53,759 bases of DNA from Acrasis kona (Eukaryota > Heterolobosea > Eutetramitea > Acrasida > Acrasidae), in the NCBI GenBank assembly GCA_026419775.2, contig JAOPGA020001112.1:1-53759 (forward strand). The letters run 5' to 3'. The position numbers and the translations under genes are program-made. The notes below the pieces were generated by a model that was given only the letters and a program-made list of their open reading frames with translations, was not told the origin of the DNA and searched no databases. Below are positions 22,640 to 52,373 of this stretch, in pieces. Position 1 is the stretch's first letter. Each line of letters starts with the position of its first letter.

Positions 22640-25600
22640 TCAACCAGCCTTAACACTGGTCTGAACCACTTGCTCCTGCTCAGGAGAAACATACGAAGTC
22701 AACATGTGCAAAGATTCGAATGAGTTAATATCTAACAAACCCGCTGCACGTTCCAAACTCTCTCCAACACCCAGCACCGTGACCTCCCAATAATGACCCT
22801 TTCTCAGCTCACACCACATTTCGCCATGATGAGGATCAGCTGCGATACAAGCATCTCTGACTTGTCTCCTACTATCCTCCGTACCATGATCCATTTCAAA
22901 CTTGTAAGCATGAATCCATGCGTCACCGTTATCCTTATTCAAAGCAATAGCCCTGTTCAACCAGGACTTTGCTTTTACCAACGCACCATCCCTCCATAAA
23001 ATCTTTGCAATACAAATCATCACCAACGAATCAGTGTCACAGTATTTGATAGCTTCTGCTCCTTGTGTTTTTTGTTTTGCTTGTATTTCCATATCTACGC
23101 TCAACACCCACACCAAACCACTCTTAGGGCACTCTTGTAAAGCTTTTGCAAGTAATGTCTTTCCCATATTACTCGCCACATCAGTGATGCTCATCAATGA
23201 TGTTTTTTTGGTGGATAAAAAGTGAGCGTGATTTTCCACTCTGATGCTTGCCCTCCATAACTCACCTCTATTGTGATGATCTTTGCCAACCATCAAGCGT
23301 GCCTTGTCCAACAGAGCACGTGCTTTGGAAATGTTATCTAATTTCTCAACTTCCAACTTGGCGGCACACAGCCAAACGGGTACGCTCTTTGGACATGCTT
23401 TACATGCCTTTTCAAGAATGCTTCTGGCGCTCTTGGCGTCGCTATTTACGCTCATTTCATATTGTGCTCTCATCAACCACAATTTGTAGTATTCGTCTTG
23501 ATCCATTTGCGATTTTGAAGTGAGAGAGTCCAGAGCACTTTGTAAAATATCTCGCTCTCTGGAACGTTCCTTTACAATGTTCATGAGGAATAGATTACGT
23601 TCGAACACCGCACTCTTTACCCAAACACGAGCAGAATTGACTTCTTTTCGAGCCTTATCTAATAGTGCTCGAGCCCTTTCGAATTCTTTATTTTCACTTT
23701 CTAATTTCACAGCTGCCAACCAAATATCTTCAGAGTGTTTATTGGCGCTAAATGCATCGTCTAGTACTTTACGCGCACCTGTAATATTGCCGCCCAACCA
23801 CTCCTCCTTTGCGTACATGAGCCATAGTTGTTGAGCGTGTGGACATGCCAACACGCTTCTGCCCAATATACCCAGTAATTCTTGTCTTGTTCCATGTTTC
23901 TTTTCCAATTCACATGCTTTGAGCCACAATGATTTCTTATCTGGAAATTCGGTGATTGCATAATCATAAATGGCGCGTGCTGTTTGAATGTGACCCTGTT
24001 GTAGTGCATTATTGGCATCTTGTATCCAAGTGTGTTTTCGATCAGCAGGTTCGATTCCGATGGAGATTACATTCTTGATGATTGCTTTACAAGTGTGAAC
24101 TTGTCCTCTACTTTCGCACGAATAAGCATATTTGGTGATCCAATCATCTCTAGCAATATCTACTGATTGTGAAGATAATGTCTTGATTGAATTCTTGATG
24201 ATGGTTTCGATCAAAGTTGCTTCTTTTAAATTGGATTCTTCGAGTTCAGCAGCGGCAATCCAAATCAAGGGTTCATTTGGTAACTGTTTATTTGCAGATT
24301 TGATCACTGCCTTTGCTTTGGTATATGTTTCTAACTTGGCTAAAGCTAACCAAAATTCTGCATTACCAGGAATGCATTGAACGGCTCTTGCCAACAATAT
24401 CCTTGCATTGTCTTCGTCTTCCTGTAATTCGATTGCTTCGCGCCATAATACGATACTGTCGGGTATGGTCAATAGTGCCTTTTGTAGTACTTTACGCTTC
24501 GAACGTACATCTGATTCTAATTCAGCAGCGGCCAACCATATTTTTACGCTTGTTGGTAAATGTTGAACTGCTCTTGCGACGAGTGATTTGGACACATTGG
24601 GTGGATGTAGGCGAACGGCCTCCAACCATGCATCTTCGCTCTCTGGACAATTTTCACATGCTTGGACAATTGCTTGTCTTGCTGTTCGTAATTTACCTGC
24701 TAATTCTTCTACTCTTGCTAATGCGATCCATCCCTCGGAATTGGTAGGATTCGATTTTGTAATGTTGACGAGCAATTCCCTTGCTTTTTGATAGTCGCCA
24801 ACTTCTGATGCTCCCAAAGTGCTACTTGGATTCATTCCCGATAAATATGCTTTTGGATTAATGACGCTCTTACCGGCGACGTCATCTTCTGCTTTTTGTA
24901 ATTGACTGTTGATGAGAATGCCTCTTAGTTGACCCAAGGCACGTAGATCGGTTAATGTACCGCTTTGATCATTTGTGGATAGAACATTTTGTTGTTGAGC
25001 TTGGACAAGATAAGAATCAGGAACCGCACTAATTGTTTCGTATTTGCGTCGTTTGACGGAGTAGTCGCCAATTTCTGGAATGTTGCCCCATTCTTCTTCT
25101 GTGACCTCTGATAAATTTCTTTTAAGATCAGCAAACTGTGATTGGATCTTTGGTCTTGCATTTCTGTATTTTTCTAACATTTCCTTTTCTTTTTGTTCTC
25201 GTTGTCTTATGCGTCTTCCGTCCATGCGCTTATCGACTGCATCCCAAAGTTGGTCTGCTTCGCGATCTTCTGCATCGTATTCGGCACCAGCTGCGAATAG
25301 TCCTCCACCGTCAAAACCTGACCATTGGTCGAACTGTGAATCGGAATAATCACCCCGATCTGCATCGTCTTCGGTTCTCACTGGTTGTGGGGCACCAGGT
25401 CCAGTTGCGATAGTTCCGGTAAGTCCAAATCCCACAGCACCTCTTCCCGCTCCAGGAATATAACCTTCAGGTGCTTGACCAAAACTTGCTGATGGTGCTG
25501 TACGGGCTGGTCCGATATCTGATCTTGTTGTAAATCCAACTGCTCCTCTCCCGACACCAGGAACATAGTTTGCAGGTGCTGGTGTACTAAATTTCTTCTC

Positions 25601-25702
25601 TACTGGAACGCCTCTTGGTATTATTGGTGCTTTCCCAGCAGTTGTCGGTACTATGGGAGCCCCAACTGATGTGTTTTTTTGCATTGTTTGATGGTCGCTC
25701 AA
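22640..25702 (-). CDS. PRPF6: Pre-mRNA splicing factor PRPF6/Prp6, U5 snRNP component
   Basis: Single exon, 1,020 residues, close to the human length of 941. PRPF6 bridges U5 and U4/U6 in the tri-snRNP. The N-terminal PRP1 domain shows the repeated motif (NYVPGVGRGAVGFTTRSDIG and GYIPGAGRGAVGFG), then DRGDYSDSQFDQWSG and ADQLWDAVDKRMDGRR. From about residue 310 to the end there are roughly 20 HAT/TPR helical repeats (for example ENCPESEDAWLEAVRL, AVQCIPGNAEFWLALAKLE, ACKACPKSVPVWLCAAKLE) ordered as in other Prp6 proteins. No introns are needed across 3 kb. The gene is divergently transcribed from the OB-fold gene with only 42 bp between start codons. Confidence 0.97.
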   Translation of the reverse strand: MSDHQTMQKNTSVGAPIVPTTAGKAPIIPRGVPVEKKFSTPAPANYVPGVGRGAVGFTTRSDIGPARTAPSASFGQAPEGYIPGAGRGAVGFGLTGTIATGPGAPQPVRTEDDADRGDYSDSQFDQWSGFDGGGLFAAGAEYDAEDREADQLWDAVDKRMDGRRIRQREQKEKEMLEKYRNARPKIQSQFADLKRNLSEVTEEEWGNIPEIGDYSVKRRKYETISAVPDSYLVQAQQQNVLSTNDQSGTLTDLRALGQLRGILINSQLQKAEDDVAGKSVINPKAYLSGMNPSSTLGASEVGDYQKARELLVNITKSNPTNSEGWIALARVEELAGKLRTARQAIVQACENCPESEDAWLEAVRLHPPNVSKSLVARAVQHLPTSVKIWLAAAELESDVRSKRKVLQKALLTIPDSIVLWREAIELQEDEDNARILLARAVQCIPGNAEFWLALAKLETYTKAKAVIKSANKQLPNEPLIWIAAAELEESNLKEATLIETIIKNSIKTLSSQSVDIARDDWITKYAYSCESRGQVHTCKAIIKNVISIGIEPADRKHTWIQDANNALQQGHIQTARAIYDYAITEFPDKKSLWLKACELEKKHGTRQELLGILGRSVLACPHAQQLWLMYAKEEWLGGNITGARKVLDDAFSANKHSEDIWLAAVKLESENKEFERARALLDKARKEVNSARVWVKSAVFERNLFLMNIVKERSRERDILQSALDSLTSKSQMDQDEYYKLWLMRAQYEMSVNSDAKSARSILEKACKACPKSVPVWLCAAKLEVEKLDNISKARALLDKARLMVGKDHHNRGELWRASIRVENHAHFLSTKKTSLMSITDVASNMGKTLLAKALQECPKSGLVWVLSVDMEIQAKQKTQGAEAIKYCDTDSLVMICIAKILWRDGALVKAKSWLNRAIALNKDNGDAWIHAYKFEMDHGTEDSRRQVRDACIAADPHHGEMWCELRKGHYWEVTVLGVGESLERAAGLLDINSFESLHMLTSYVSPEQEQVVQTSVKAG

Positions 25703-28807: not shown

Positions 28808-29495
28808 GTTCGGATAAAAAAATTAAGCGACGTTTCTACAGGATTCGACATTGCATCTCCCACAACCACCGACAACTCCTCTTCATTCAACCAAGTATCT
28901 TTTATGGATAGCCAAAAATCCTTCCAACAACAACTTCGCAACAAGGAGTTCACCATCGAAGAACACATTCGCTCAATCTCATCCCTTCAACAAAAGGTTG
29001 ATGAACTATCCAGAGCTGCTCTATTAGAAAGACTAGGATTACTGGTTGGTACTTGCCGAACCTCAAATATATATACTTTTTATGAAATGCTATTTTTTTA
29101 ATTCATCAATCTCTATAATGTTTGAACGCAAGCCAAACCTACAATCCAACTAAGTCGAATTGAAAATTGAAAAACGGATCAAAGATATCCTTCCACATCG
29201 GCCTACCCCACAGCATTAACAATGGACTCTTCCAAGGATATTTTATATGCACTTAATAGTAGTAGTCGTACTTGATGTAAAGAGCAGAAAGGTTGTTAGA
29301 ACGGTTGCGGCCGATATACCAATTGGAAATGATGTTTATGACACCATATACGATACCGTTGTCAAAACACTATTCGTGTCCTGCAAGAACCTCCAGCAAG
29401 AATCCCGCATTGTGTCAATCAACATTGATAGTGGGAAAGTAACTTTTAGCGACGAGATGTATTCACAAAACTGGCATGACAATATTCAGGGTTGA
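28808..29495 (+). pseudogene. Decayed coding fragments
   Basis: Two pieces retain protein-like sequence. The first frame is open from about 28808 to 29101, with a Met at 28904 followed by SFQQQLRNKEFTIEEHIRSI and a short coiled coil; it ends in AT-rich sequence. The second is split over two frames: 29180-29274 (Met at 29222, MDSSKDILYALNSSSRT, stop) and 29247-29495 (VLDVKSRKVVRTVAADIP, LFVSCKNL, SRIVSINIDSGKVTF). The second piece resembles blades of a beta-propeller (YVTN/NHL style) with a frameshift at the AGTAGTAGT tract. A complete gene cannot be assembled with plausible introns. It may be debris of one or two genes. Confidence 0.4.
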
Positions 29496-29538
29496 GAAGA
29501 CACAAACTTAAAATTTCCGAAGGTGACGAAATAATAAA

Positions 29539-31743
29539 ATGAAGGACCGCAGAGCATTATATCTACACCACACTTCCGGGAATAATAGTATAAGTTCAAT
29601 AATCATCCACTTTGGAAGTAAGATGCTTCCAATAAAATATTTTGATCGATTATACTACAAAATTGAAAATGGAAGTTCTTTATACATTGACATATATATA
29701 GATCACGAAGTGGTATGCTACTTTCATCGTAATATTTGTTTAGAACCAACACTTCGACATTACTCCGTTGTTGATGTCCAAGACAGCATAATTACTATAA
29801 GCAGTATCTCAACATATGGATTAAATATTCGCAATAAGAGTAAGATATCAGTAAAATTAAATGAATTCGATATTAGGTCCTTTGCAAGGCCTTTGAATGT
29901 TGACAGGTTCAAAATGTTCTTTGACGTGGTCTTCGTTGCTCACAGCGCTGCAATCTATTATATGTCTACTACTGCCTCCACAGCAATTATCACACCTTCA
30001 TTAAGCATTTATACTCGATTACGAGACGAGCCTATATGCAATTATAATTGTTTTGATATAGAGAATCAAACTGCACTATCTATTATTAGATGTATGTCAA
30101 TTAATGAAGACACCGAGATGAGCCCTAATGTTTTCAACTACCTACTTTCAACTAACAGAAGAATCCTCAATCTCTATCGACAGATTCAATATCGAGATAT
30201 TCTCACTTGGAGGGATACTGTGTTATCTGACATCATGATACACATATTTCGACACATGTCATTGAAACATCTGATTATATTCCTCGATAATCTTGACAGA
30301 AATGAGAAGATGCCAACTGAAAGTGATCTATTGAACGGGGTTACTGAATCTGCTCTATTCAGGAATAGAAGAATAAGAGAATTCTCTAATTACTTACAAA
30401 ATCAGAATATCGCGACACCCATCCAAATTGGTGATGCAGCTATATATGGAGCTGGTAGGACTGGTGACATTCCTTACATTATAAAAATCATGGAAGCATA
30501 TAATAAAAACCCTACGGCAGACGAAATTGATAGATTATTGACCAATTCTGGTTTTGATGCTCTACAAGCTCATAACTACAAATTAGAACCACTAAATCTT
30601 GATGGTTTGGCAACAATGACTACATTAAGCAGCAAACAGATAGAACGTTTAGTTAAACTTAATTGGACTGACATGCAACTAGTCGTTTTAATAGAAGAGA
30701 TCTTCTCTTTCTATATTCGCAATCAACAAGGATGTGCTATTATTCTTAGCTTAATTGATATATTCCCAGAATTAGATTCTTATTTGTACTTATATCTGAC
30801 CAGGTTTGCTGCACGGTATGAGATGCCTTTAGTGATAATCAAGTTGTCAAATCACATCGAAAGAAACCAACAAAGAGTTGATATCTCCCAGATACTTGAC
30901 ATCGTTATTCAAAGCAGGGACGCTGATGCTCTAGCTGCAATAGTTAATAATCCAAACTATGAACTAGATGATGACTTTCATCGATATATATGTAACAAAA
31001 TCATTTTATCAGATGATTATCATTTCGCAAGAAGAGTGTTCAATCAAGTGCCACACTTTTTTGATATCAATTATCAAAGAATTGTTGATCTCACTGTTAC
31101 AAACATGTTGCGATTTGATAAATTATCCGTATTAATATTAGTACACACATCAAATAACATACAGGTTATGCACACTGCACGATATTCCTTGATCCAAGGA
31201 ATGTTCTTGTGCTTGAGAAATGAAGAAACCTTCATGTTGACACGAATTTTGAGTATGGTCCCTTATTTACATCAGGTCAGCATCCTCAAGACTTTGAACG
31301 CTTTGTTGATTGAGTTTAGGAATACTATACATTTCTTTGAAATCCCAGAACTCCGCAGATATAAAGATTTGAAATTATTCTTGTATCAAATGAGGATTTT
31401 GTATGATCATGATTTGAACACAGTCACAAGAGAAATGAAGGCAGATAACATCAGCGGAAAGGACATAGTAGAGAGCAAGCTACAAGAATGGGATACTTTT
31501 TATTTGAGCTCACTTTTTATGAATCCTGGAGTTATAGATTTGTGTTTGAAGGATAACAATTTTAAAGAGTTTATCGAGTACTTGATTGGCCAATGTCTAA
31601 ACAAATGTTATTTTAAGTTAGATGGTGATTTGAGCGCAGTGAAAAAACTTGTCAAGGTTATAAGAACAGTGGCTGAGCAAATTTTTCCGCGAAGTTCACA
31701 AATGGTTAAGGATGTTCAAGATTTAGATTTGTCCCTAAATTAA
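29539..31743 (+). CDS. Orphan 734-residue protein
   Basis: Single uninterrupted exon starting at the first ATG; the frame is long and clearly coding. I do not recognise the family. Residues 1-150 look beta-rich (SIIIHFGSKMLPIKYF, YIDIYIDHEVVCYFH). From about 190 to the end the protein is alpha-helical with Leu/Ile-rich helices about 30-35 residues apart, such as SLKHLIIFLDNLDRNEK and AIILSLIDIFPELDSYLYLY. That suggests a degenerate helical-repeat solenoid, possibly ankyrin- or HEAT-like. There is no signal peptide, Cys cluster or catalytic motif. Codon use is more AT-rich than in neighbouring conserved genes, which would suit a fast-evolving or lineage-specific gene. Confidence 0.75.
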   Translation: MKDRRALYLHHTSGNNSISSIIIHFGSKMLPIKYFDRLYYKIENGSSLYIDIYIDHEVVCYFHRNICLEPTLRHYSVVDVQDSIITISSISTYGLNIRNKSKISVKLNEFDIRSFARPLNVDRFKMFFDVVFVAHSAAIYYMSTTASTAIITPSLSIYTRLRDEPICNYNCFDIENQTALSIIRCMSINEDTEMSPNVFNYLLSTNRRILNLYRQIQYRDILTWRDTVLSDIMIHIFRHMSLKHLIIFLDNLDRNEKMPTESDLLNGVTESALFRNRRIREFSNYLQNQNIATPIQIGDAAIYGAGRTGDIPYIIKIMEAYNKNPTADEIDRLLTNSGFDALQAHNYKLEPLNLDGLATMTTLSSKQIERLVKLNWTDMQLVVLIEEIFSFYIRNQQGCAIILSLIDIFPELDSYLYLYLTRFAARYEMPLVIIKLSNHIERNQQRVDISQILDIVIQSRDADALAAIVNNPNYELDDDFHRYICNKIILSDDYHFARRVFNQVPHFFDINYQRIVDLTVTNMLRFDKLSVLILVHTSNNIQVMHTARYSLIQGMFLCLRNEETFMLTRILSMVPYLHQVSILKTLNALLIEFRNTIHFFEIPELRRYKDLKLFLYQMRILYDHDLNTVTREMKADNISGKDIVESKLQEWDTFYLSSLFMNPGVIDLCLKDNNFKEFIEYLIGQCLNKCYFKLDGDLSAVKKLVKVIRTVAEQIFPRSSQMVKDVQDLDLSLN

Positions 31744-32013
31744 TACGACCTATGATTGTTCCAATGATCTTTATTTCCAATGAAATCAAAGTGTTTCGAA
31801 TAAATGTTTGCAAAATAAATTTTTATTTTCTTAAAATATGGACGTTGATTAATGGGGTGAGAGTCTTGAACTACTTCCAATTTGACCCAGTTTCTATTTT
31901 GGTAATCCCTGATTGAACTTTTTACAAAGGTTCAATTTAAAATGAACGGTCGAATTGATAACCAGTTAAAATTGAGTGAAATTTCATATTTTTATCAACT
32001 GTAACTCCACAAA

Positions 32014-32457
32014 ATGCAACAAGCAGAGCACATCTCCATGGGACCAAAGGATCCCCTCATCCATAACACAGCTATTCCCTCCGAACACCCTGTTCACGTT
32101 GATACATACATGTCCCCACCACCACATTACGCACAGGCCCCACCACAATATGTTTCCTCACCACCACAATACGTACAAGCACCACAACAATACCAATCCA
32201 CAACAGTGATACAAGCACCAACAGGAAAGCTAACTGGATTACCAACAATGACTCAATGCCCCAACTGCAGGTCAAATGTAACAACAAAGACAAACAAGGT
32301 TGTCGGTGTCGGTAACTTTTTGGCAGCCGGAGTTTGTGTTTTGATTGGTTGCGTTGGTGGATGTTGCTTAATCCCCTTCTGCGTTGACGATTTAAAAGAC
32401 ACAGAGCACTCCTGCCCAGCCTGCCACTCACACATTGGTAAAGCATCCATGTTGTAA
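32014..32457 (+). CDS. LITAF-domain membrane protein
   Basis: 147 residues in one exon from the first ATG. The N-terminal half is Pro/Gln/Tyr-rich with repeated PPQYV and PPHY units, which resemble PPxY-type ligands for WW-domain ubiquitin ligases. The C-terminal half is a LITAF domain: CPNCRSNVTTK, a hydrophobic segment (NFLAAGVCVLIGCVGGCCLI), then CPACHSHIG. The two CxxC knuckles bind one zinc and the hydrophobic hairpin inserts in the cytosolic face of late endosomes or lysosomes, as for LITAF/SIMPLE. The gene converges on the giant MUN-protein gene, with 49 bp between stops. Confidence 0.93.
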   Translation: MQQAEHISMGPKDPLIHNTAIPSEHPVHVDTYMSPPPHYAQAPPQYVSSPPQYVQAPQQYQSTTVIQAPTGKLTGLPTMTQCPNCRSNVTTKTNKVVGVGNFLAAGVCVLIGCVGGCCLIPFCVDDLKDTEHSCPACHSHIGKASML

Positions 32458-32506
32458 TACAATTAAAAACATTTTTGAAACACAAAATCACTTGTACAAA
32501 ATTAAT

Positions 32507-35500
32507 TTATTTAAAGTCCAATTTCAAGTACTTTGCATACTTTGATATATTCGGCATGACTTGTTCTTGGCTTTGACTGCCCTGTTCCACGTGAGCAGTA
32601 ATCACCGCAATATTTCCTTGTTGCTTGTACAACACGTTCAACGCACCACCCTTGCTCCTCTCAATCACCGAACAAATCTTTTGGAATGCATCATCTCTCT
32701 CCTTGATTCCACTATAAGTAATAGTCCTGCCCTGCTTATCGGTCACCTTAATTCCATTCTTTTGCACCTTGCTCATCTTGCTCAATTTATCGAATGGGTA
32801 CATGTACTTTCCGCTCGATAATCCTATGCTCACGCTCGCTCCAAAGCACAATGAATCGGTGAACAAGTACAAATTACCGGGTAATTTTTGTGCACTTTCC
32901 TTACAGAAGAATTGGTCCATCAATCTCTCATTGTGCAACAAGATTGTAAACTTCTTACGCAGTGCATCGCTGACCGGATATCCCTTATCATCGTTCGAAT
33001 CTCTTGGAATTACTTTTCTGGAATCTTGAGATGTAGATGTGGAATGTTGTTGGTGATGTTGGTTATGACTTCCGAATACACCTCTCACGGCCTGCACCAG
33101 CACGTTACCTTGTTGTCTTCTTCTCTCTTCGAATTCACGAGAGCGTTCGCATAGGAATTGATCGACTGCTTCGTAAGCATCGTCTCGATCATCTAATCCA
33201 TGGAATTGATGATTTCTGCCAGAACGATCCAAGATTTCAATTCCAGATTGATTCCTCCTGCCCAAATCACATTTGCTCACCGAATTGACCTCATCTAATT
33301 TCAATGTTAATTTGGGTAATTCATGAATGGATCGACCGCCACCAATCATGACCAATTGTCTCATGTCGGTGAACGGGACGAAGGTAATGTATTGGTTGGG
33401 TTCCTCCAATAAACACAAGAAACCATCCACAAAGTGATACAAGCATCGATAATGTTTCAAAATGACTAGACGCTGTGCCAAGGTATTTGGAGAGGTGGGT
33501 GCGCCTGGTGACGAATGATTCAAACCAAACACTCGAAGAGCCTCTTCTGGAGAAGCCCTCAGTAAAGAACTAGCGGCGAAGGGTTGTTGCTGAGATAATG
33601 GTATTTTGAATTCCACACGTTTCGATTCTCGTTGTTCCTTTGCAATTGTGAAAATCTTGAATTGATCCTTGATGTAATCATTTAGTGATTTTTCAAATTG
33701 TACATCTTTTTGGCGCCTCGTTCGGAACTGATTGATTAATTTATCGGTTTCTGCCCTAAGTACCTTATCGACTTGTTGATAGGCATCGTTCCATTGATTA
33801 CATTCGCGGTGTTCTCTGGTCAATTTGGATTGATTGATTTTATTTTCGTGACGAATCTTTTTATGAGGTAATGTAATGTTCCTCAACATTTTCAACATTT
33901 TGTAATCTCGTCTTAATTTTTTGTTCTCCGAATCATTCTTCTTGACTTGATCTTTGAGTTGTTTGTAATCGTTTTTACTGCGTTCGATCGCATCCGTAAG
34001 CGCTTGTAATTCGGTATCTAATTTGATTTGTGCATTTTCATATTGTTGCGTTTCGTAACGAACTAGTTTGGAAGCTACTGGGTCGTTATGTCGAACTCTA
34101 CGATTCATGAATGCGAAAATGTAATTTCGACGAATGATTCGTTGTTGTTGGCGTTGTTGTGGCGTTAATTTGTTCTTGGATGATGATGGTTTATGACGTG
34201 GTGGCGCATCATCGTCTTCTTCTTCATCGTCTTCATCGTCATCGTCTTTACGATTATCTTCGTCTTCGTCATCTTGATCCGATTCGTGATCCGAATCAGA
34301 TTCCCATTCGGATACGCTATCGGTATCGTCTTTATCTAGTTCTGCATCCATGGATAATTGTTTGAGTTGCTCTACTTGGGTATCCAAATCATCTTCCAAA
34401 TCTTCATCTTCCTCGTCATCGTCGTCATCGTCATCGTCGTACAAATCTTGTTGTGCCAATTCTTGAGCCATTTCTGCTTCTTGACTATCTTTTATTAACC
34501 TCCTCTCGTCTTGTTTATTTTCGAATTGTCTAATCTTTTCGCTCAATTCTTGATGTTCGGCTGCTAACGTGCTCGAATCTAATCTCGAAGATTTGATTAA
34601 TTTTCTCAAAAGTGCCAATTCGCGATCCAAGAGGTTCTTATCTAATCCAGCACCTCCTTGATAGAAATACTTGTGTAATTTCTTTAGTGTTATCAACAAG
34701 TGATTGATTTGTCGTTCGCTCATGGTTCCGTTGTGATCGGTTACCGTCGTATTCGAAAAGATTAATTCTTTAATTTCTCTCGAAAGCGAATTGAACAGTT
34801 GGTAAAGTAATTGATTAAATAATTTCTTGTTGAGTTCCACTACGATCATTCCTAATTGGTCATCTAGGTACGAAAAGACACCATTGAGAGCAACGTTGAA
34901 TGTGTGGTTGATTTGTTGAGCTTGTTCTGGTGTTTCCGTAGGTTGAGCGACCGTCGGTTTGTTGTATTCGATTGTATTTGGAGGATTGGTAGAAGATGGT
35001 AAATCAAATCCTGCATTCGATAATTTTTCTTGAATGTTCATGCTCTTGATTCGGTCCATCATGGAAGTACCGCTGGATGGTGGAGCCTTTCCATCGTTTT
35101 TAATGAGCGATAACAATGAGTTTTTGATGGTATCCAATACATTCTTGACGATGAAATCCATCATTCCCTTTTGTAGGTAATCGTGATTGATTTGACGATA
35201 GGTCGTCTTGAAGGTATCGAACATCATTTTGAGAGATTCTTCCATGGCATCCTTTTTGGTAGATGTCGTGTTGGTGGTGGTCGTTCCGCTCGTCGATGAT
35301 TTAATGTCGCTAAAGGTATTCGTGTTCGTGTTCGTTGCCGTAGTGTTGGTAGATGTCAAATCAGTTTCGTCATCGTCGTCATCATTTGATTCTCCATTTC
35401 TCGAAGAATCATATTTGGAAGAAGCGCCGCCAGGTACATGAGCGCTCTCTTCTATTAATTGCGAACGAACTTCGTGAGAGAATGTTTGCATTCTTTGTGT

Positions 35501-38500
35501 ACATTCGTTCAAGTTATTTAAGCAGAGTACCATCCTCTTGATGGTTGCTTGATCCTGCATGCTTTGTATTCTTTCCGTTTCGTTAATTTCGTCATAGTTA
35601 CCAATAATTTCATTCTTCATTTTGGTAAACATGTCGTCGCCGATGGATTTGAATTGATTGAGGCGATCTGCAAAATTCCTCTTGTCGGCATGTGGACGCA
35701 ATTTGTGTTTTTCGATTTGTTCTGCTTGTAATTTGACCATGCTCTTTGCGAATTTATTAAAGATGGCAGAATGTTTTTGAGCATAGTGGGTCATGGCTGC
35801 ACAAACGACATCGACGTAGGTCACGTAAATCAACGACAAGTTATTTAATTGATTACTGTGACTATTACCGCTGGTGTTACTGCTGCTTTGTGATTTGTGA
35901 CTACCTAATCCTGTTTGAGTGTATTTGCCGCTCTTAATGTAGTTGCTGCTGGCGGTTGCATCCGATAACAAATCACTTGCGGTATCATCGTCTAGATTCT
36001 GATCATCGTCATCTTCGGGGTGATACGCATCCTTTCTGCTCTTCTTTAAAAAGTCACAGTGTTGTTTCAAGAAGCTCATGCTTTGTTGAACATAGGTAAA
36101 GAAATCGAACACGCTGGTGGTGTAATCACATTCTTCGGAAATCTTTACCCATTTGTCCTTCTCGATGGCTCTATCAGCAACCTTCTTTAATTGAGGTTCG
36201 TATTGATTGATCCAGTCGTAAATAAATGGCATGAACAATCGAGTGGTATCGTATGGTTTCAAATTAACGCTATACTCTAAAAAGTATTCGTGTAATTTAT
36301 CGATTTTATCCGGTAATTCCAACACGCCGTCTGGTAACGAATTACTATTCAATTCATCCGATGCGCCATGAGCTGCCCTTCTGCCCTGTTTGAAATCCAA
36401 ATAGAATTTTTCGAATTCATCTTCGAATAGGTGATAGAAAATCTCTGCAGTGTTCTTCATTAGATTTAATGATTTGGGGAAACACCTCTCGAACATGTTC
36501 TTGTATCGCTGTAAATGTTCCATGATGCAGCTACACAGAGCTAATAAATGAATGGGTTGTAATTTATCGTCGATATCTAACGTGGATGTAGAATCGGATG
36601 CATCCATTTGTTGTTGTTGCATCTTCTTGTAACGAAGGATGATTTTATGCTTAAAGTAAGCCATTGTGTTTTTGGCATTATTGCGTAAGCATTCCAAGAA
36701 TTTTTGATAAATGATGCTGGATAATACTTGTTGTTGTTCCAAATCATCTTTGGTGGCGAATTTACTGGGAGAGGATTGATTACTTCCTGATCCACCTCCC
36801 ACGACATCCAAATCACCGCTCATTGATCTTTGCAAGTGACCCACCACTCCGAGTGCATCTCTATTTAACATATCCCTACTTGCGCTCTTGCTGATGGTAT
36901 TTGTGATTTGTTGACGAGGTACTCTGGATCGTCTGGGAGCTTTGTTAAGCGAAGCCAAGTATTCGCTCAGTACGGTTCCGTTGTTACCTAATACTCTAAA
37001 GCAGTGAACCAATTCCATAACCTTTACGCAGAACATGAGAATGGTTTGCATTTTATCGGTAGTTGCTCTCCAATGGAAATCCAAAATGGTTTGACATCTG
37101 TTCATGATTCTTCGTTGAGCCAATTCGAATAATTCGCTTTCGCGAGTATTGACGAATAGTAACATTCCTTCGCCTTGTTTCATGGTGGTGAGCGATCGAT
37201 CGATGACGCCTTGGATAATGTGTAACATTGTTTTGTAAGCATTGCAAATGTCGCTTGCCAAGTTGCTGTTGCTCTTGTGAGTGGATTCGAATCGACGAGA
37301 TAATTTCTCTAGTAGCACTAGCATGGGATAGACGTGTCCAAATCCATTTAGTCTCGATACGCACTTGATGATGTAGATGGCATCGTCGCTAATGGGCACG
37401 ATGCTCTTGCGGAACGACTCTGCTAATTCTTCGTCTTGTTCTGCTCTTGCTGCATTGGATGAAGATGCGTCAGAATCTACATCTGAATTTTGATCATCTG
37501 CATCATCATCTGTATCTTGATTTTCGGATTCTTCAGAAGATTCAGAATCAGTAGTTTGGTCTCTTTCGGAATCTTCTGATTCTGATTTTTGTGAATTTTC
37601 ATCTTCATCATCTTCGTCATCAGATTCGCTATCAATGTTAGGATCCAACTTTCTTCTCTTTTCTCTTAGCTTTCTCTTTCGTTCCATATCCTTTGCTTTT
37701 TGTTGTAATCTCTTTTCCTTTTCTTTCAATCTCTTCTTGTCCAATTCAATTTGTTTACGTTCTCGCTCTTCTCGTTCTCTTCTGCGACGATGTCTTTCAT
37801 CGGTTCTCTTCTTATCGTCCATTGCATCTTCTTCTTCCAACACTGCATATAAACCATCAACGACAAATTGTATAATTTGCATTCCTTTTCTACTGGTTCC
37901 ATCTAGTGAAGAAGACGATGATGAAGAATCTACGATAGCATTTGATTTGATGTCATAGCGAGATCGTAAATCTTCTAATGGCATTCCTTGTTGTGCTCTA
38001 AATTCTTCAAAGGCACGTTCGGACGCAAAAGTACTCTTGTGGTAGAACGCCTTTCTCTTTTTATGACTAGTGACGCGTAAACTAGTTGGTTCTTGTTCCT
38101 TCACCATACAATCGTAACTATTAACCAAATCTGCAGATACATTTTTGTGACCTCTACGGTCTAGTGTCGACAATTTACTGTCCATGACTCTCTTGTCGAC
38201 ATCTAATCCTCTTGCCAACATTTTACTCAATCGTTGGAAACGATCGTCTTGTTCTTGAATGGTCTTTCGTTTATCGAATTGAACGAATAGAGCGCACAAG
38301 GATACTTCGAATGCAATTTCTCGTTGTTTGTGGAGCAAATCCACTGCGTTTTGGTACATGTTACGAGTGAACCCTCTCACGCATGAAATGGCTTGATAAG
38401 CAGTGTGATCGTTTCGAATGCTCATGTCCTTTGGTTCGTCTGCTCCTCCCATGGCCAAATTAAATGGAATGCTTATGCTTCTTACTTTACTTAACATTCC

Positions 38501-41500
38501 ACCGGCCATCTCACCTGCCATTTCGCTTGGTTTCACGAACATGTTGTTCCATACGGTATCCAAATGTAAAGCGTCCTTCATGTGTCCTAACACATTTTGA
38601 TTCGAAGCGGCGCTAGAGAATTCTTCGTCGTCGTCGTCGCCTAGTAAATCAGCCAACGACATTGATTTGAGTTCGGCATTGGAGTGAATGGAATTAACGT
38701 TGGGAGCAGGTGCACCCATGGCTTCGTTAATGACATCTTCTCCCTCCTTATCGAACATTTCATTCTCTTCGGCGTCGTCTCTACTGACGTGTGCTGATCG
38801 ACGTAATCTAACCATCAATCCACCATCTCTCATGTCAGTTTGTTCAAAATCAACAATGATGGAATATAATCGATGGAGCAATCCCAAATGTTTTGGATCT
38901 TGTTCCAATCCTTGCACAGCGACGAACAACGCTTCGTATTGATCGTCATAAATGGTGGAATTGATACGTGCGAACAATTCGAAAGCTTCTGGATAATCAG
39001 GATGTAATTGAATGAGGCCCATGCTCTGATAAAAGGCTTCATCGTTCTTTAGCCGTTGATCCTTTTGAGATTGAGACAAGATTAATGATTCAATGTAATC
39101 GCGAAGATAGGTATTGTTGAGTGGTTCCAAATTGGATCCTTCTAGCAACGCTCTTTGAGCTTTACTCAACGCTGCTTTATTATGGACCACAATTTCGGTG
39201 GTAGTGGCCACAATGGCAGATGATTTCGCTTGAGATGGAGTGGTCGATCCATCGTTTTCTTGTTGCTCTTGTAAATCAATTTCTTGTTTTTTCAATTTCA
39301 TCATTTGTAACAAATTGTCGTTGAGTCGGGTAAGTAAATTACCTTCTGCTTGAGCAGTGTTTTGATTATGAACAGTAGGCGACGCCGTTTCGTCCTTTTT
39401 CTTTTTATCGGTCCTTAAACCGACGGCACCTAATGCCAAGTTCATGATTCCAATGCTACCACTTGCGATTCCGCCTCCAATTTCGTTCACGACGTTTACG
39501 ATTGCATTTCCGCTCTTGTTGGTTTTGACCAAAATTTCTTCTCCATCAGCATCTACCGTAGAAGCATCCGAAAAGACTCTATTGAGATAGAGTTGACCCT
39601 GTTCGTGTTTTTGTTTGGCTTGATCGCTCTTATCTTGTCGATCTCTCAACTCTTGTAATAAATCTTTGAGAGGTTCGTGATCATCGTCGATTTTGATGCC
39701 TTGATCGATCGATTGTTTGGCTTGTGCATACTCGCATAGTTCCAAATGAGCAAGTGCTTTGCATACGTAGGTTTCCATTTCTGCTGGATCCACTTGCATT
39801 GCTTTTTTGGCATCGCGAAGAGCCTGTCTCGATTTGCTTAACGATAATAATAATCGAGAGCGTCTACAGTAATAAATGGCATTGGTTGGATGTAATTCCA
39901 TTGCCTCCGTGAACAAACGATACGCAAGATCAGTGTTTTGTCTACTGATGGCCTCTTCTGCATCTTGGCACTTGTGTTGTGCGCTGTAATATTGACGTTC
40001 CAATCGTAACACCTCTTCTAATCTCGTCAACATTTTATCGTGCTTTTTGAATTTATCTAAGCCCTTCTTGAGAGTTGATTTTGCTCTCAAAATGTCCTTT
40101 TTGCGCAAATAGGATTTGGCTTTATAATAAACAGCATCGGCACTTTCTGGATCTAATTGAACTGCCTTCTTAGTGTCCTTGATTGCTCTTTGGGGTCGAT
40201 TCGTTTTTAACAAAACACGTGCGCGTAGTAATAACGTAGGGACGTGATTGGGACGTAATCCAATGCTATGATTCAAACGCTCCAAACAATCTTCGTATAA
40301 ATCGTTTGATTTTTGAATTAATTCCTTAATCTCTTGTTCCTCCTTTCCAGTGTTGATTTGGATTTGTTTGGGAGGAGAAGGTGATTTGGGAGGTGGTGTC
40401 GCTGGTTTTGATTGTGGCGACGAACTACCAGAATCAGATGATGCCTTGTTGCTATAAGTCTTTAACCCTATGGGACGACGAATGGTGGTGATTGAAGTTT
40501 GACGAGTGGGAGCAGCTGGTTTGTTTTTATCTTTTGCGCTCTTTGCAATTTGTTTTGCTTTGGAGGCAATGCTTTGAGCTTCCTGTAAGTGCTCCTCTGC
40601 TTCTTCGTTACATGTGTAGAGACGTATTTTCTTCCAAATGTCATTGAGTGCATTATTGAATGGTGCATATTCATCTAATGCTCTGGTACATATGGAAAGT
40701 GCTTGACGTGCTTGATTGTTATGTAACATGCTCTCGCACAACAACACATAAAAGTGAGGATAATGTGGTTGTAAAGAAATACACTTGTTACAGTCCTTGA
40801 TGCATTCTTCTAATTTACCCAATGCATGATAACACTCTGCTCTGTCGTAATAAGCCATTGCACATTCTTCCTTATCGTCATCTAAGGATACATGATCATG
40901 ATAATCTTGTAATAATTGTTGATTATCGTTTTCACGATTAGGCGACAATTCTTCAACGTCAAGAATTTGATTTCCGCTACGATCATTGTCACTTTCGGGA
41001 GTAGGAGCCGTTTCGATAATGGTGGGAGTTGATTTTGGAGTGGGGATGACAGGTACCAAAATATGTACCTTTGATTCTCCAGCAGGTATCAATTCGCCCT
41101 CTTGATCATAATCAACGGGCGTGCTGGGCGTATCAATCTTTAATCTCTTATATTCGTCATGTTCCAATTCCTTCGAACGAGATGAACTATTTTCGATTTG
41201 ATCGATTACTGTATTAAAGATTAATAACGCATCATTGTATTCCTTCTTTTCCAAAAAGATTCTTCTGCCTTGTTTACGTAACGATTCGAAATGTTCTCGT
41301 TCTTCTTTGAGAATGCTTAATTTGATTTGTAATTGCTTCACGCTTTCGTATCTCTTCTTTTTTAGTTCGATGACGTGAGGTGGTTCTTGTGAACTAGGTG
41401 ACGTTGGTTCAACGACTCTTACATTTTGTAACGAATCATCAAATTCGATATAGTGACGAGTGATCATTTGGTCGATGAATTGAATTGCATTGTCGAATTG

Positions 41501-44500
41501 TCTGAGAGATGCGAAAGATTTGGCACCTAACGAGATGCTCTCGGCAATTGCATCCGCTCTTCTAATTTGTCTTTTTAATTTCTTTTCCAAATGAGCTCCA
41601 TCGTGTGACTCTGTGTAAGATTTGTATTGCTCTTGCGAAAAACTCTTTCTGTATTGTGCATGTAACCATTCGTCCTGTACGCACAAATCCATGGCCCTCT
41701 TTGCACTTTCTGTACATTTTGTGAATTGACCACCCAAGTATTCACATTGTGCACAGTGTAAATAAAAGTGATAAGCGTGATCATCTAGAGCAATGGCATC
41801 GCTCAATAATTGTTGAATTTTCGAAACTTCATTTTTAGTTTCGTCTCTCAAATCTTCTTCGCGAGTATGCAACGAGATTTTATAAGCTATTAATCGACGA
41901 GTCTGCGGTGAGATTTTCGAATGTTGATTCGATTTTGATTTTTCCATAAACATTTCTTGTTCTAATTGACGTAATAAGAACTGAGCCCTTTCGAACAACA
42001 TTTGTGCGTTGCTGCTATTTTGTACAAAATCTTGTACGGCTCTTAATTCTCGTTGTAGGTCCTTGTTGGATGGGTCCATACTTAGACCACGTTCCAATAC
42101 TTCCATGGCGGCTACGTGCCTGTGGAATTGAACCAAACAACGACTTTGAGCCAAGTAACCAAAATATTGTCGTTTGGACAAACGAACGGATTCAAGAGCG
42201 TCCTTCATGGCACTTGCCAAGTCGTTTACTCCTATAAAACTCTCGCTTCTTCCAGCATGATAGAGTCCATTCTTTGGTGCCATTTCTAATGCTTTGGCAT
42301 AAAAGACCAATGCATCGTGATCCTTGTTGTTGTTATGGAATTCCTTTGCTCTTTCGTAATACTGCTCTCCTAATTTTCTAGCATTGGTTTTTGCTTCCAC
42401 GTCATGTTGCGCCTTTTTTAATTCCAAAATGGCAGATTGGAAATGTTCGCGATCGTCTTTCCAACTCTCTTTTTGTTTATCGAGACAATTCAATCCATTT
42501 TCGAACATTTGTTGACCTCTCTTGTAATTATTTAACATGACGCGACAGTAACCTGCTAAAAGGAACGCTTTGTAGGCTTGTTTGGGAGGTTCTCCCACTG
42601 CACATTGCTGCACGCATTCTTCGGCCACCAATAATGCCTTTTTGAACTCTGAATTGGCCATGTAAGCTTCGGCCAGCGATAACAAGTACATGAATTCGTG
42701 CCTGAATGAAATGGCCTCTTTCAACAGACGAATGGCCGTTACGATTTTGGATTCTTCGTTCGAATCAGATTCGCTAATGGGCGAATTCAATTCTTGCTCA
42801 TCTTCGTCGTCTTGATTGTACTCTTCTTCGCCCAACGTATAATCGCTAATTTCCATTTTACGATAAACTCCGCTCATCACATTACGTTCTTGCTCCAACA
42901 AGATTTGTTCCTTTTTTTGCTTCTTGTATTCTGCAATCAAGGCGATCGCCTTTTGGTAATTCTCGCTGGCGCCATAATTATTTCTGGATTGATTTTCTAC
43001 GCGAGTGCGTAATCCTTCCAAACTCTTTTTGAATCGAATGGCCCTGTTCAAAACGTTCAAATCTCTGGTATCGACGTTCGAATCTCTTTTGAATACGTTA
43101 AAGAGAGATTGACGATTAGAAGAAGATGAAGATTTCTTGTTGTCTTCGATCACGTCTTCGACTTGAACTAATGCCATTTCTACTAACGCTGCGGCTCTGT
43201 TATATTCCTTCTGTAACATGCAGGCCTTCGCTTTGACTTTGTGCATGCTGACGTAATGTAAAAACCATTGTTCGTATCGTTCTTTACAGAGCTCTGGGGA
43301 GAGGTATTTGGGTGGTTTGTAACTACTCAATCTCTCTACTGCCTTATCACAATCTCTCGTGCAGTCATCCAAATGCCGAGGCACCTCTCTACCTAATTTC
43401 AGGTGAGATTTGCTACGAGTACGATATGCAGGTATCAAATGCATCATCAGGACGTGATCGTTATTTTCGATGAATTTTTGTAATTTTTCTAATTGTTTGG
43501 CTCGTTGAATTTTAGTGGCTTGTAAATGGATCGCATCTAATCCGGGCGTGATTTCGACGACAGTTGGTTCGGGTCGAGAGAGCGCTGCTTCTCCATAAGT
43601 AACCACCACTTTATCCAACACGTCGATTGCTTCCTTGTAACGACCCAAATGGAACAAACAATTACCCTTGTTGCGGCTCAATTCCAATTCCAAATCGACA
43701 TCCTTCTTTGTGCTGTACATGATGCTCAATCCCTTATCGGCATCATGTAATGCATCTTGCCATAATCCAGCATTGACTCGAAGTTGACAACGATCGGCCC
43801 AATGATAAGCATTTTTATCGTCTTTTCTAATCTTGATTGTTGATGCTTCAATGTCCCTGTATAATTCCTCCTCTTTTTGTAACTCTGCTTGTGATTTGTT
43901 TGATGATTGCTTGTTGGGTAATTTGTGGCCCACTTCAATCAATCGGAATAATGCATTCACGTCCATGGCACATACGTTACTAAAAGTGGTCTTTTTGATG
44001 GGATTGGTACCGCCTTGCACGAACAACGTATTGTCGATGGAATCAAAGTACATGACGTTACTCTTGCGTGCTTGTGGCCACGTGTATTCTTCTTGAAGGC
44101 CCAATCGAGGAATGGAAACCCATTCGTCATTGATGAGATCCAAAACGTCGGCATCCTTCGTAGGGGCTAATGGTGGATTTTGTCCTCCGAACACCAAAAT
44201 GCATCCTCTCCCAATGTAATTCGACGTGTGTGCGTGTCGCTCGTTGGGTGAATTCTTCAAACTGGTGCTCAACATGCGATACTTGTTAGTGCCCGTGTAG
44301 GTGCCCAAAGTGACGGCATTTCCAAAGCTCTTGATTCCATCCACCGCTTGACTTCCCATCTTTTTGGAAATGTTGACGCCCGTTTGGATGGTGTTTTTAA
44401 TGTTGGTGGAAGCGGCCGTGCCGAACGCTTGGAACGATTTGATTAATTTGTTTTGATTTTGAGCCGGTTGACCGGAGATTTGTTGGTCTTGATTAATGTT

Positions 44501-45574
44501 TGTTTTTTCTGGATCGGATAAACACAACCATTCTGCGCTGGTGAACGAGTAGGCCCATACGTCCTTGTAACTCATGGTATGTGTGGTGAAGCGAATCAAA
44601 CCGGCGATCACGATCATGCAGTACTCGTCGACGCCACTGTCGCTGTCGCTCTTGATGCTGGTGGTGCTGCTGCTGCGCGTCATTCCGCTCGATATGCTCG
44701 CGTTGCTCGAACTACGAGTCATGCCGCTCGGACCGCTCGAACTGCTGCTGGTGTTGCTCGTGCTGCGACTTTCTTTGACCCTTGCAATTTCGCTCATGTT
44801 GATGAGGGTGGAAGTGTGGCCCTGTCTTGCCTCTGGTTTTACCATTTTTTTGTTGGCATGAGCAGCAGGTGTGACTTCGCTCCATACCATGGTTTCGAGA
44901 TCAAGACACCAGAAATCATCAAGCGTCTTGTTGTTGTTGCAGCCTCCGTAAATCCACATGTGATCATTGTGGACCACTGCGGTGTGATCGTGACGTGGTG
45001 GCGGTAACTTGACGCCGTCGAATTCTACTTTGGTCCATGACCAACCGTTTGATGGATCTAGAATCCAAGTGTCGTTGAAATCATTCTTACCGTCCGTCCC
45101 TCCGAACAAGATTACTTGTTGGCGTTCGTCGAGCTCCATGACTGATTCTTCGTCGCTATTGTCTTCGTCGTCCAAATCTTGGCCCGCCTTGTTGATCCTT
45201 CCGGCATTGTTGACAAAAGTGACTGTAGTATGGGACTCTCTTGGACATGGTCTATTATTTTCTTCTTCTTTTTGTCTGCCCTTGATGGCTTCTATTAAGT
45301 TTTTTTGCTTTGTGCTCTCTTGTATAATCTTGCAATGCCATTCTTTGAAGATGAAAAGGAATGAAAAGATTTAAAAAATACCCGTTTCTCTGCTGTTTGT
45401 AGTTAACTCGACAATGTCGTTCAATTTTCCGGATTTTTGACCAGTTCCTCCGAAAATGTATAAAGTTTTGTCTTTCTGATTATTTCGCTTTGTTTTGTGT
45501 AGACGGAACATTGAATGCTCCATCCTTTCCTCAAAAGCATCGCCAGTTTTAATGTCACATAACTTCCACTCCAT
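32507..45574 (-). CDS. 4,342-residue Kelch-TPR-Munc13 (MUN) protein with GRAM/PH-like C-terminus
   Basis: Two exons (45382-45574; 32507-45342) with a 39-nt intron. A TGA just before the ATG fixes the start. Kelch blades occupy residues about 35-515 (TLYIFGGTG, VILFGGTDGKNDFNDTW, HMWIYGGCNNNKTLDDFW, LFVQGGTNP). TPR arrays fill about 540-2100 (for example AMAYYDRAECYHALGKLEE, AVYYKAKSYLRKKDILRAKS). Highly acidic/charged linkers lie near 2620-2700 and 3700. A MUN region follows: MHD1-like near 3095 (LFMPFIYDWINQYEPQLKKV, DKWVKISEE, SVFDFFTYVQQSM) and MHD2-like near 3575 (QLLYQLFNSLSREIKELIF, ERQINHLLITLKKLHKYF, GAGLDKNLLDRE). This is the core of Munc13/UNC13 vesicle-priming factors. GRAM/PH-like modules end the protein (about 4040 and 4170). 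No C2 domain is seen. Probably a vesicle-tethering or priming scaffold. Confidence 0.9.
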
Positions 45575-45843: not shown

Positions 45844-45928
45844 TGCGTTAAACGGGAATCGAACCCGTGTCGCGAGCTTGGAAGGCTAGCATTCTTTAGT
45901 GAGTTATATACCACTATACCATTAACGC
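45844..45928 (-). tRNA. tRNA-Gly(UCC)-like gene with a 13-nt insertion before the anticodon stem
   Basis: The acceptor stem (GCGTTAA with TTAACGC), the T arm (ACGGGTTCGATTCCCGT; B-box GGTTCGATTCC) and the A-box (start of the D arm, GGTATAGTGGT) match eukaryotic tRNA-Gly(UCC). The anticodon loop is CTTCCAA. Total length with the discriminator A is 85 nt, against the normal 72. The extra bases fall between the D loop and the anticodon stem (around TATAACTCACTAA) and not after the anticodon, where nuclear tRNA introns sit. The anticodon stem CTAGC/GCTCG has one mismatch. It could be an ectopic intron, an unusually large D loop, or a pseudogene. Confidence 0.7.
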
Positions 45929-46143: not shown

Positions 46144-46192
46144 TGTCCCAGTTCATTCAAACCAACTAAGTACAATTGAATGAACTGGGACA
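46144..46192. repeat. Perfect 17-bp inverted repeat with 15-base loop
   Basis: TGTCCCAGTTCATTCAA at 46144-46160 and its exact reverse complement at 46176-46192 enclose a 15-base loop. It would form a stable hairpin in RNA on either strand. It lies about 215 bp on the 5' side of the tRNA-like gene (which reads leftward) and just 3' of the small minus-strand ORF. It may be a terminator-like hairpin, a small RNA precursor or the relic of a MITE. Confidence 0.65.
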
Positions 46193-49456: not shown

Positions 49457-52373
49457 TTATTCATTACTAATCACCGGCATGATGCTGAATTGATTTTGCT
49501 TTTGTTTGTCCATCCATAATTTGAGACACAAGTAATCCGTTAACAGGAAAGGAAGCTTCAAAACATCTTTGGCTTTCCTCTCTTCATCAATTGAGTATGA
49601 CGCGTGCAACCAAGTGACAGCCCTGTCAATTAATTTGGGTGACATTACTTCCAAAGGAGCAAGGTCTATTTCATAACGATTAAAATGTTTATAGCTCTTC
49701 AAAGTCTCTGACCCTTTGACATACCCCTTCTCAAATACATGTCTAATATCAGAAACAAATTGATCTACCTCACTTAAACGATTCTTAATTCTTTTTATAA
49801 AGTATTCTTTTTGATCAGCACCATTTGCAGAGTGTTCATCACTTTTGTACTTTTGGAAGAATTCCCTCCATACCTTAACAATCAACTTGGCTTGAACGTA
49901 TTCACTAGAACTAACATTTACAGATTTTATTATACTCCTCAAAGGATCTTCCTGTAGTGTTTTTTGGTCATCACCTTGTGTAGAGGAGTGTTCTTGCTTC
50001 AACCAATCATAGGCCACATTGAATAATTTACTAGTGATAACAATACCACCTGGTGCAACATGACCGCCGTTTGTCAAATCTTCAGAGAGGGCTTTTTTTG
50101 TTTCACCTCTTTTCAATAGCTTTCCAACTATCATCCAGCTCTTTTCACCTACCTTTTGTTGTCTATGATTCAAGGAATCAGAGTAATGACCGTCCAGTTC
50201 TGATGAATACATTTTAGCATAGTCTTTATACATGTATGAAGTCATTCCACCGTTTTCTTCTGCATAGATTCTTAGATAATACTCCAACAATCCAATTTGA
50301 TCCTTGTGTTTGAATACTTTCAAGTAATCTTTGTCCTCCTGTGAAGTAGAAACGGAGTTATCATGAGGTTTGGAGTAATCATGAGATTCTTCTTCTTTAA
50401 AGTGGGACACCATGAGATGATCCCAACACACCCAATACAAATCACCATCTAGATCTCCACCTCCCATCATGTCCTGATGTGGTCTTTTACAATTGCTTTT
50501 AGGAAATAGAATCATGTCTCTAATATGGGACAATGATTCATGGTTCACGCACTTTAAAACTCTCATATCACCAGAGTGTACACAGGGGTTTCTTGTGACA
50601 ATTACTTTGGTGTCATCCAAGATGACTTTACCATAAGATACATACACCTCGCCTTCTTTTAATACACCAGCCTCATCTACACCACCCATCAAGTATTTTG
50701 ATTGCTATAGATTGTTAACTTGGATCAATAATGAACCTAGTACTTACTCTTTCTGGTATGCTATAGTCCTTAAGAAACTTTTCAACCTTTTTTTTGATTT
50801 CTTTATCAATGTATTGGTTAACAAATGGAATCTTGTAGACATCTACGGAGAGAAGAGGTTAACTAATAAATATGAAAAAGAAACTTACCTTGTTTGAGAA
50901 GGACGGCCAATCTATATACTGATTCGCTCACCGGCATGATGGCATTGGTTATTTCTGAAATGTTATGATCTCGTTCGGTAAGTTCAATCAAACTATCAAG
51001 GTTAGTTTTGGCTAATTTGACCTTATTCATGAAAGGTATGAATTTTTGTTGCAATATAACCTAAAAAGTGTGTTAATTTGTAGAATGTGAATTTTACATC
51101 GGGTGGGACTTGACATGATTCTAATACCATCATAAAGTGTCTCGATAGACCTGCTGGTATGCTTTTTGAAATGTTCAGGACATCAATGTAATTGTACTTG
51201 TCGGTTCCTTCGAATTTGTGCATTGATTCTCTTAGGAACATTTGTAACTTTTCGTTTTTGTGTAACTCTCTTAGATTACGAATCACCTTGCTGTCATCAG
51301 GGTATTGCACCACTACTCCTTTAAATCCTAAAAATCGAATTTGGAATGCACTCGGTGCCAAATCGAACGTGCCGTTCTGTAATTGTGGTTTGATTGCATT
51401 GGCGATGCGATTGGCCAGTGATTCCGTAATAATTCCGATGCCATCCGTAAAGTTAAAATCGTTATGTAGGTAATCTTTAATCAACTTCCACTCGGATTCT
51501 TTGACCTATTTTTTTTGTTATTCTATCAAGGAATTGGTTGATTACCTCAACTGAAGCGAGGGATGTTCCAAAAGATAACCCTTGTCTACCAACGACTTTT
51601 CTGATTCCTTGCCTTTTTGCTTTTTCGAAAGTGCCAAGAATGGATAAAACATAATCACGGTTGTGCTTGTTGCTAATGTACCAAAACGATCCAGTTCTCA
51701 TGCCCGAATTTGAAGCACTTAGCAAATTAAATGTTGTGCCTTCACTTTGATGGTTATGTTTGACTCGACAAGAGACTTACTATTCTATGGTTCCTTTTTC
51801 TATTAGCTTCTTGTCCTTGAAATTCACTCTTAGTATATCATTTGAACTAATGCCATTCTGTTCGAAAATTCTTAAAGCTCTATTGCTAAAGGTCTCAGAT
51901 TTGTCTTCAACTATGACTTTCTCCTCAACTCTTACTGATTTTGGTAGTTCGGCGGATTTGGGCACTACAACCTCCTCGCCAGTAGTTACAACTGCCGTTC
52001 TGGGGTATGAATAGTATTTGGGTTGCACACGAATTTCAACAGTGTGATCAACTACATAGCTTAAGCATTCCTCCTTGACACTCTCATTTGTGTGCTCGAT
52101 GTTGTCTTCCTTTACATCCTGGTTGTTTTCTTGTTTTGGAGCTCTCTTTAGCTGTCCCATTTTCTTTTCTATCGCGTTTTCTGTTCTGTTTGGGAATCTA
52201 TCCTTGTTTTCCCTCGCAATGGATGCAACTGTTAAGCCTTTTTGAATACCATTCACGAGAAGCTCATTCGCCAAGTCAAGATCTTCTTTTCTAACTTTGT
52301 TAATCTTTAGTAGAATAATGGATTACGTCCAGCGCCCCCTATTGGGTGAGCTTTTGTTCTCACCACTACTCAT
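49457..52373 (-). CDS. RNA-dependent RNA polymerase (RNA-silencing type) with N-terminal SANT/Myb domain
   Basis: Seven exons (52327-52373, 51781-52290, 51546-51744, 51098-51505, 50889-51060, 50748-50842, 49457-50704) with GT-AG introns of 36-46 nt give 892 residues. This is the cellular QDE-1/RDR/EGO-1 class, which makes double-stranded RNA for siRNA production. The C-terminal core shows FQIRFLGFKGVVVQYPDDS, YLMGGVDEAGVL, VTRNPCVHSGDMRVLKCV and the catalytic GGGDLDGDLYWVCWD (DxDGD). The first two exons encode GRWTKEDLDLANELL and FPNRTENAIEKKMGQLKR, a SANT/Myb-like helix-turn-helix that ordinary RdRPs lack. The protein is shorter than fungal or plant relatives (1,100-1,400). The start at 52373 lies on exon 1, whose splice restores the Myb motif. 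All catalytic aspartates are present. Confidence 0.93.

Follow-up and report, generated by a model that had tools for sequence, protein, structure and literature searches.

The DNA analysed here, a stretch of 53,759 nucleotides from Acrasis kona (contig JAOPGA020001112.1, hereafter the window), carries on its minus strand a gene for a giant protein in which a Munc13-type MUN module is preceded by Kelch and TPR repeats and followed by a GRAM domain. The listed open reading frame (ORF), 32507-45175 on the minus strand, comprises 4,222 codons. Removal of a predicted 39-nucleotide spliceosomal intron with GT...AG borders (45381-45343) carries the frame upstream, such that the full gene runs from an ATG at 45574 to the stop codon at 32507 and encodes 4,342 residues with no internal stop. 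The frame is open in one of the three removal phases tested for the 39-nucleotide stretch. Exon 1 (45382..45574, 193 nucleotides) contains the start codon and the first Kelch blade (MEWKLCDIKTGDAFEERMEHS...LYIFGG), the intron occupies 45343..45381, and exon 2 (32507..45342) supplies the remainder of the protein including the stop codon; all three are placed by the reading frame. The start codon at 45574 is well founded because a paralogue in the same genome has a matching start, MEWKVTEAIKGDSFEERWQHS. The paralogue begins with MEWKVTEAIKGDSFEERWQHSSF and the window protein with MEWKLCDIKTGDAFEERMEHSMF, giving the common pattern MEWK...GDxFEER, and the 39-nucleotide intron is absent from the paralogue, whose frame reads straight through the first blade. 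Features of the gene given below are on the minus strand, and residue numbers are those of the full protein; numbering in the ORF is 120 lower.

A Kelch propeller opens the protein. TPR clusters spread across some 1,430 residues come next, then MUN, an acidic tract, a coiled coil, a PH-like module and finally GRAM before the C-terminus. The first-pass annotation had described a Kelch, TPR and Munc13 MUN protein of more than 4,300 residues, and its coordinates, size and order hold. It had also regarded this order as lacking a described precedent; in agreement, no description of a Kelch-TPR-MUN-GRAM order was found in the portions consulted of the literature on Munc13 or MUN with Naegleria, protist TPR, GRAM or kelch. 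A Pfam scan of the whole ORF returned Kelch PF24681 (3.7e-32) and TPR_1 (1.1e-21); of the 26 families in that scan, the 25 listed include neither MUN nor GRAM, and cut pieces reveal both.

The MUN module spans about residues 2709-3680. On a cut piece, Pfam MUN PF06292 scores 46.7 bits (E 3e-12; cut-off 24.2 bits). Searches of the PDB retrieved rat Munc13-1 at 7e-5 with the single sequence, at 5.2e-12 with a three-member family profile and at 1.6e-13 with a five-member profile to which the relative P0004 and the paralogue had been added, the MHD1-side and MHD2-side stretches matching separately. Eight PDB sequences reach E <= 1 with the five-member profile: six of Munc13-1, one of Munc13-4 (0.048) and one Nup155 fusion (0.31). 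The MHD1 side (residues 2948-3158; 36062..36694) is covered by PF06292 and by a Munc13-1 stretch with an i-Evalue of 8.1e-07. The MHD2 side (residues 3425-3680; 34496..35263) contains a GGxGL motif and matches Munc13-1 with a stretch i-Evalue of 3e-05; in the single-sequence search 'yfyqggagldknlld' is legibly aligned with 'yfhaggvglkktfle'. Between them, the MUN middle (residues 3230-3360; 35456..35848) gives a weak 0.5-bit stretch that is consistent in position and by itself not significant. Munc13 also ranks first when a low-confidence model of the MUN region is compared with known folds by Foldseek and VIA-align. Judged by the family profiles, the MUN homology goes beyond chance.

The same genome harbors a second locus. 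A protein search with the MUN piece matched contig C760 (6.6e-35, 31% identity), and a search with the region ahead of MUN matched contig C761 (1.1e-15). C761 (from about 26,049) and C760 (1-3,987) share 166 identical overlapping bases and together encode a paralogue of 3,438 residues, which is 28.5% identical to the window protein over 3,177 positions and contains Kelch (2.4e-64), TPR and GRAM (34.4 bits). Among metagenome relatives, P0002 (4,086 residues) is about 55% identical along nearly its whole length and lacks the first exon, P0003 (2,972 residues; 33% identity) begins inside the Kelch region, and P0004 (2,293 residues; 34% identity) is without either end. The order is nearly whole in the window gene, P0002 and the paralogue alone; since it aligns in P0002 and the paralogue, it is kept in two paralogues and a metagenome relative. 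P0002 and P0003 were the two matches among 1,851 candidates scored in a search of long proteins, and a second such search (4,731 candidates) yielded P0004 besides P0003 itself. Scored against 7,118 candidates, the three-member MUN alignment had no match at E <= 0.001.

Contig C201 (1-9967) is 99.45% identical to window positions 29287-39250 over 9,969 columns, flank included. C201 is probably a second allele of the gene in an assembly that keeps some haplotypes apart; alternatively, it is a very recent duplicate. Over 6,744 shared ORF bases the two differ by 28 substitutions, of which 24 are synonymous and 24 fall at third codon positions, with no insertions or deletions (indels), whereas the 3,220 shared flanking bases contain 20 substitutions and 7 indel bases. 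The chance of at most four amino-acid changes without selection is 4e-9 to 4e-13, for kappa from 8 to 1. Purifying selection therefore probably acts on the C-terminal half, the comparison reaching from about residue 2096 to the C-terminus; for the N-terminal half, the evidence comes from the relatives.

The Kelch beta-propeller region comprises residues 1-523 (43967..45574), with PF24681 at 2.8e-31 on the N-terminal piece (first 221 residues) and Kelch_4 at 6.7e-10 on a second piece; six blades with long inserts between them are discernible by eye. In Pfam scans, both of the entire ORF and of its pieces, a TPR-rich solenoid appears at residues 550-1980 (39596..43888), with recognisable clusters near residues 500-530, 830-860, 1050-1176, 1559-1630 and 1743-1980. 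A strongly conserved block defined by the alignment of relatives follows the TPRs (residues 2115-2250; 38786..39193) and is without a Pfam family; across ORF residues 2001-2100, identity to the window protein is 86% in P0002, 57% in P0003 and 59% in P0004. The three-member alignment delimits a further conserved region (residues 2378-2570; 37826..38404), with no Pfam family at 0.01. It leads into a charged low-complexity linker (residues 2570-2700; 37436..37828), about 80% of which is missing in P0003 and P0004. The helical segment ahead of MHD1 (residues 2709-2865; 36941..37411), read as ISDDAxYxxKxVSRxNGFGxVYPMLVLLEKLSRRFE, is the most conserved stretch and forms helices in the model; ORF residues 2601-2700 are 88%, 57% and 63% identical in P0002, P0003 and P0004, respectively. 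The stretches at 38786-39193 and 36941-37411 are the two best conserved of the family outside the TPRs, neither with a named domain, and may be real functional sites.

Behind MUN lie an acidic tract with runs of D/E (residues 3690-3788; 34172..34468) and a predicted long helix or coiled coil (residues 3790-3965; 33641..34168; helices 3-26 and 30-176 of the C-terminal model). The C-terminal AlphaFold model, built from a three-row alignment with a mean predicted local distance difference test (pLDDT) score of 51.2, contains two modules, each of seven strands and a helix. Foldseek gives 22 matches to this model at E <= 0.001, including tandem PH proteins, Leishmania 4tyz and Lam6. Homology to the histone-chaperone tandem PH proteins Rtt106, Pob3 and SSRP1, which lead the Foldseek list, was rejected, the likeness being one of tandem PH fold only and of low confidence. 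The first module, PH/GRAM-like (residues 4019-4141; 33113..33481), is drawn from the low-confidence model and its tandem-PH matches; no Pfam family matches it, and its conservation in the paralogue is weak (16% over 114 positions). The second (residues 4190-4295; 32651..32968) is a GRAM domain, with PF02893 at 39.4 bits and E 6.1e-10 on a 373-residue piece (cut-off 23.6 bits), and the family profile matches Lam6 (PDB 5yqr) at 5.2e-11 and 4tyz at 5.2e-4. Of the GRAM/PH-like modules assigned to this end by the first-pass annotation, the GRAM is supported by sequence homology, the PH-like module is a model-based prediction, and membrane contact is predicted by homology. GRAM was not reported on a longer 553-residue piece of the window protein, being found there in one of three members, and the window gene is not among the matches of a genome-wide GRAM search. 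Absences in such scans are weak evidence because a known GRAM was missed both on the longer piece and genome-wide.

Elsewhere in the window, a Neurobeachin-type BEACH protein extends over two ORFs at 3126-11988 (plus strand), with the Neurobeachin solenoid, DUF4704, PH_BEACH, Beach (5.7e-116) and WD40. On the minus strand, 13884-15083 encodes a ribosomal protein S18 domain, probably mitochondrial, inside a longer ORF, 22640-25702 encodes PRP1_N and HAT repeats, probably of splicing factor Prp6, and 49457-50692 encodes a partial cellular RNA-dependent RNA polymerase (PF05183, 1.3e-36), which suggests an RNA-interference pathway. Upstream of the giant gene, an 85-nucleotide stretch at 45844-45928 (minus strand) looks tRNA-like by eye, with ends that match and perhaps an intron; it gave no ARAGORN call, with introns allowed or not, and no Rfam match. 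A near-perfect inverted repeat (cccagttcattcaa...ttgaatgaactggg) lies at 46147-46189, also upstream of that gene. Among other proteins of the genome, S-adenosylhomocysteine hydrolase comes nearest to PDB 5v96 (Naegleria fowleri), followed by 6uk3 (Acanthamoeba), which suggests a heterolobosean source; enolase was uninformative on this point.

In the current view of Munc13, C1 and C2 domains govern a MUN rod. Sequence homology links the window protein to the Munc13/UNC13 proteins (Munc13-1 MUN, PDB 5uf7, 4y21 and 6a30; Munc13-4, 9la9) on both the MHD1 and the MHD2 side of MUN. Unlike them, the 4,342-residue window protein has Kelch and TPR repeats ahead of MUN and a coiled coil and PH/GRAM modules behind it, and Pfam scans of the whole ORF (25 of 26 families listed) and of pieces covering the protein found no C1 domain and no C2 domain flanking MUN, as the first-pass annotation had implied. 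In a lossy genome search the C2 family has 58 matches elsewhere in the genome and none on contig C556. A MUN family search of the genome matches the window gene and the overlapping contig C201 only; neither this search nor a protein search adding the paralogue found a conventional Munc13, both being lossy enough for one to escape. The genome also holds pieces of Sec1/Munc18 (17 matches), SNARE (9) and Sec6 (4). The plant PATROL1/DUF810 proteins (PF25761) are likewise MUN proteins, and give a weak profile match below the curated cut-off; PATROL1 is not known to have C1 or C2, nor a Kelch, TPR-array or GRAM part. Subunits of the exocyst, Dsl1 and COG complexes (the CATCHR proteins Sec6, Sec8, Sec10 and COG4) appear within the best 12 VIA-align rows for the low-confidence model, in a list from which the lack of a family is no evidence of absence. 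The available text of PMC3849599 describes such subunits as rod-shaped helical-bundle tethers, and MUN is generally linked to rod-shaped tethering subunits in the available parts of PMC3849599 and PMC5344669. The exocyst, Dsl1 and COG act as multi-subunit complexes, whereas the window protein fuses interaction modules in one chain.

With moderate confidence, we propose that the protein works, in a single chain, as a tether of CATCHR type or as a scaffold for SNARE assembly. Such a one-piece vesicle tether would differ in its build from the tethers of animals and plants. Its core would be the MUN (CATCHR-fold) helical rod of a giant cytosolic protein. The N-terminal Kelch propeller and TPR solenoid may hold a partner, such as a vesicle coat, a Rab, a motor or the cytoskeleton, and the rod may bind a SNARE or SNARE-Sec1/Munc18 complex. 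At the opposite end, the C-terminal coiled coil and tandem PH/GRAM-like modules would attach the protein to a lipid membrane, in the position that C2C occupies in Munc13-1. The vesicle-priming or tethering scaffold suggested in the first-pass annotation is thereby supported through MUN and GRAM homology, the function itself being predicted.

Several observations weigh against this proposal. SNARE binding, membrane binding, tethering, the compartment and the partners are all predicted by homology, and so is lipid binding by GRAM. The MHD1- and MHD2-like blocks previously considered readable do match Munc13-1 on both sides, but the window protein and P0002 alone have the GGxGL signature of MHD2, which P0003, P0004 and the paralogue lack (three of five members). 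Pfam MUN was found in two of the three members scanned and is not found in the paralogue; searched by itself against the PDB up to E 10, the paralogue retrieves no Munc13 and matches only a CHRAC-16 chain (0.01). The AlphaFold MUN model, from a three-row alignment, has a mean pLDDT of 42 and a predicted template modelling score (pTM) of 0.31; fold matches to a model of such low confidence are only supporting, and Foldseek scores residue identities too. Finally, the NF motif of Munc13-1 (N1128, F1131), which, going by its N-x-x-F spacing, probably lies at 'NLHF' of the chain, is not conserved, the aligned residues of the window protein being E and D. In the accessible part of PMC13398699 this motif is named as used to open syntaxin. 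Because two domain features (C1 and C2) and one motif (NF) fail, the protein is homologous to Munc13 in MUN yet a variant, and not a Munc13 orthologue.

That the NF motif is not conserved also suits a different role, in which the MUN rod is a protein-protein scaffold outside SNARE assembly. The protein would then be an adaptor in trafficking or at the cortex, comparable to PATROL1 of plants or Ync13 of fission yeast, and would use its Kelch and TPR repeats, which are general binding modules, to recruit cargo or factors of cytokinesis. All three members scanned have a sub-threshold PATROL1-like match (best 1.1e-4). PATROL1 is presented in the consulted part of PMC11427605 as a MUN protein delivering H+-ATPase to the plasma membrane, and Ync13 in that of PMC12132425 as a Munc13-family cytokinesis protein. 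However, PF25761 scores 18.8 bits against a cut-off of 27 bits in the window member, and the family profile matches Munc13-1 strongly on the MHD1 as well as the MHD2 side. PATROL1 and Ync13 too act in vesicle delivery, so that an adaptor shades into a tether; a role outside SNARE assembly is rather unlikely, though deserving serious consideration.

The GRAM/PH end invites comparison with Lam6/Aster at endoplasmic reticulum contacts, Lam6 being the closest solved GRAM, and the rod might merely space two membranes in a membrane-contact-site or lipid-transfer scaffold. This is improbable, as the MUN homology would stay unexplained and no StART-like or other lipid-transfer domain was found in the Pfam scans of the whole ORF and pieces; the GRAM of the window protein, unlike that of Lam6/Aster, comes after MUN and a coiled coil. 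It is still more improbable that several adjacent genes, a pseudogene or a mis-assembly have been read as a single frame. The extreme length and a first exon predicted from sequence could raise this suspicion, and several cistrons could in principle give a conserved domain order. Against it, there is no stop in 4,342 codons, P0002 and the paralogue have the same order, each in one open frame, and the probable allele combines mostly synonymous polymorphisms with an ORF free of indels, in contrast to its flank.

It is possible, and we suggest it tentatively, that in this lineage a single-chain tether, in which a MUN rod carries Kelch/TPR docks for partners and a GRAM/PH dock for the membrane, replaces a C1/C2-controlled Munc13. 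Protein partners and phosphoinositides, and not diacylglycerol and calcium, would drive it, with the old paralogue pair serving two routes. If true, the core for SNARE assembly behaves as a portable module, the MUN rod occurring with quite different ends in the paralogue pair and the metagenome relatives, and one could ask which MUN activities require calcium, diacylglycerol or the NF motif. The protein would also offer a one-polypeptide system for studying how tethering joins SNARE assembly, for which multi-subunit complexes are needed elsewhere.
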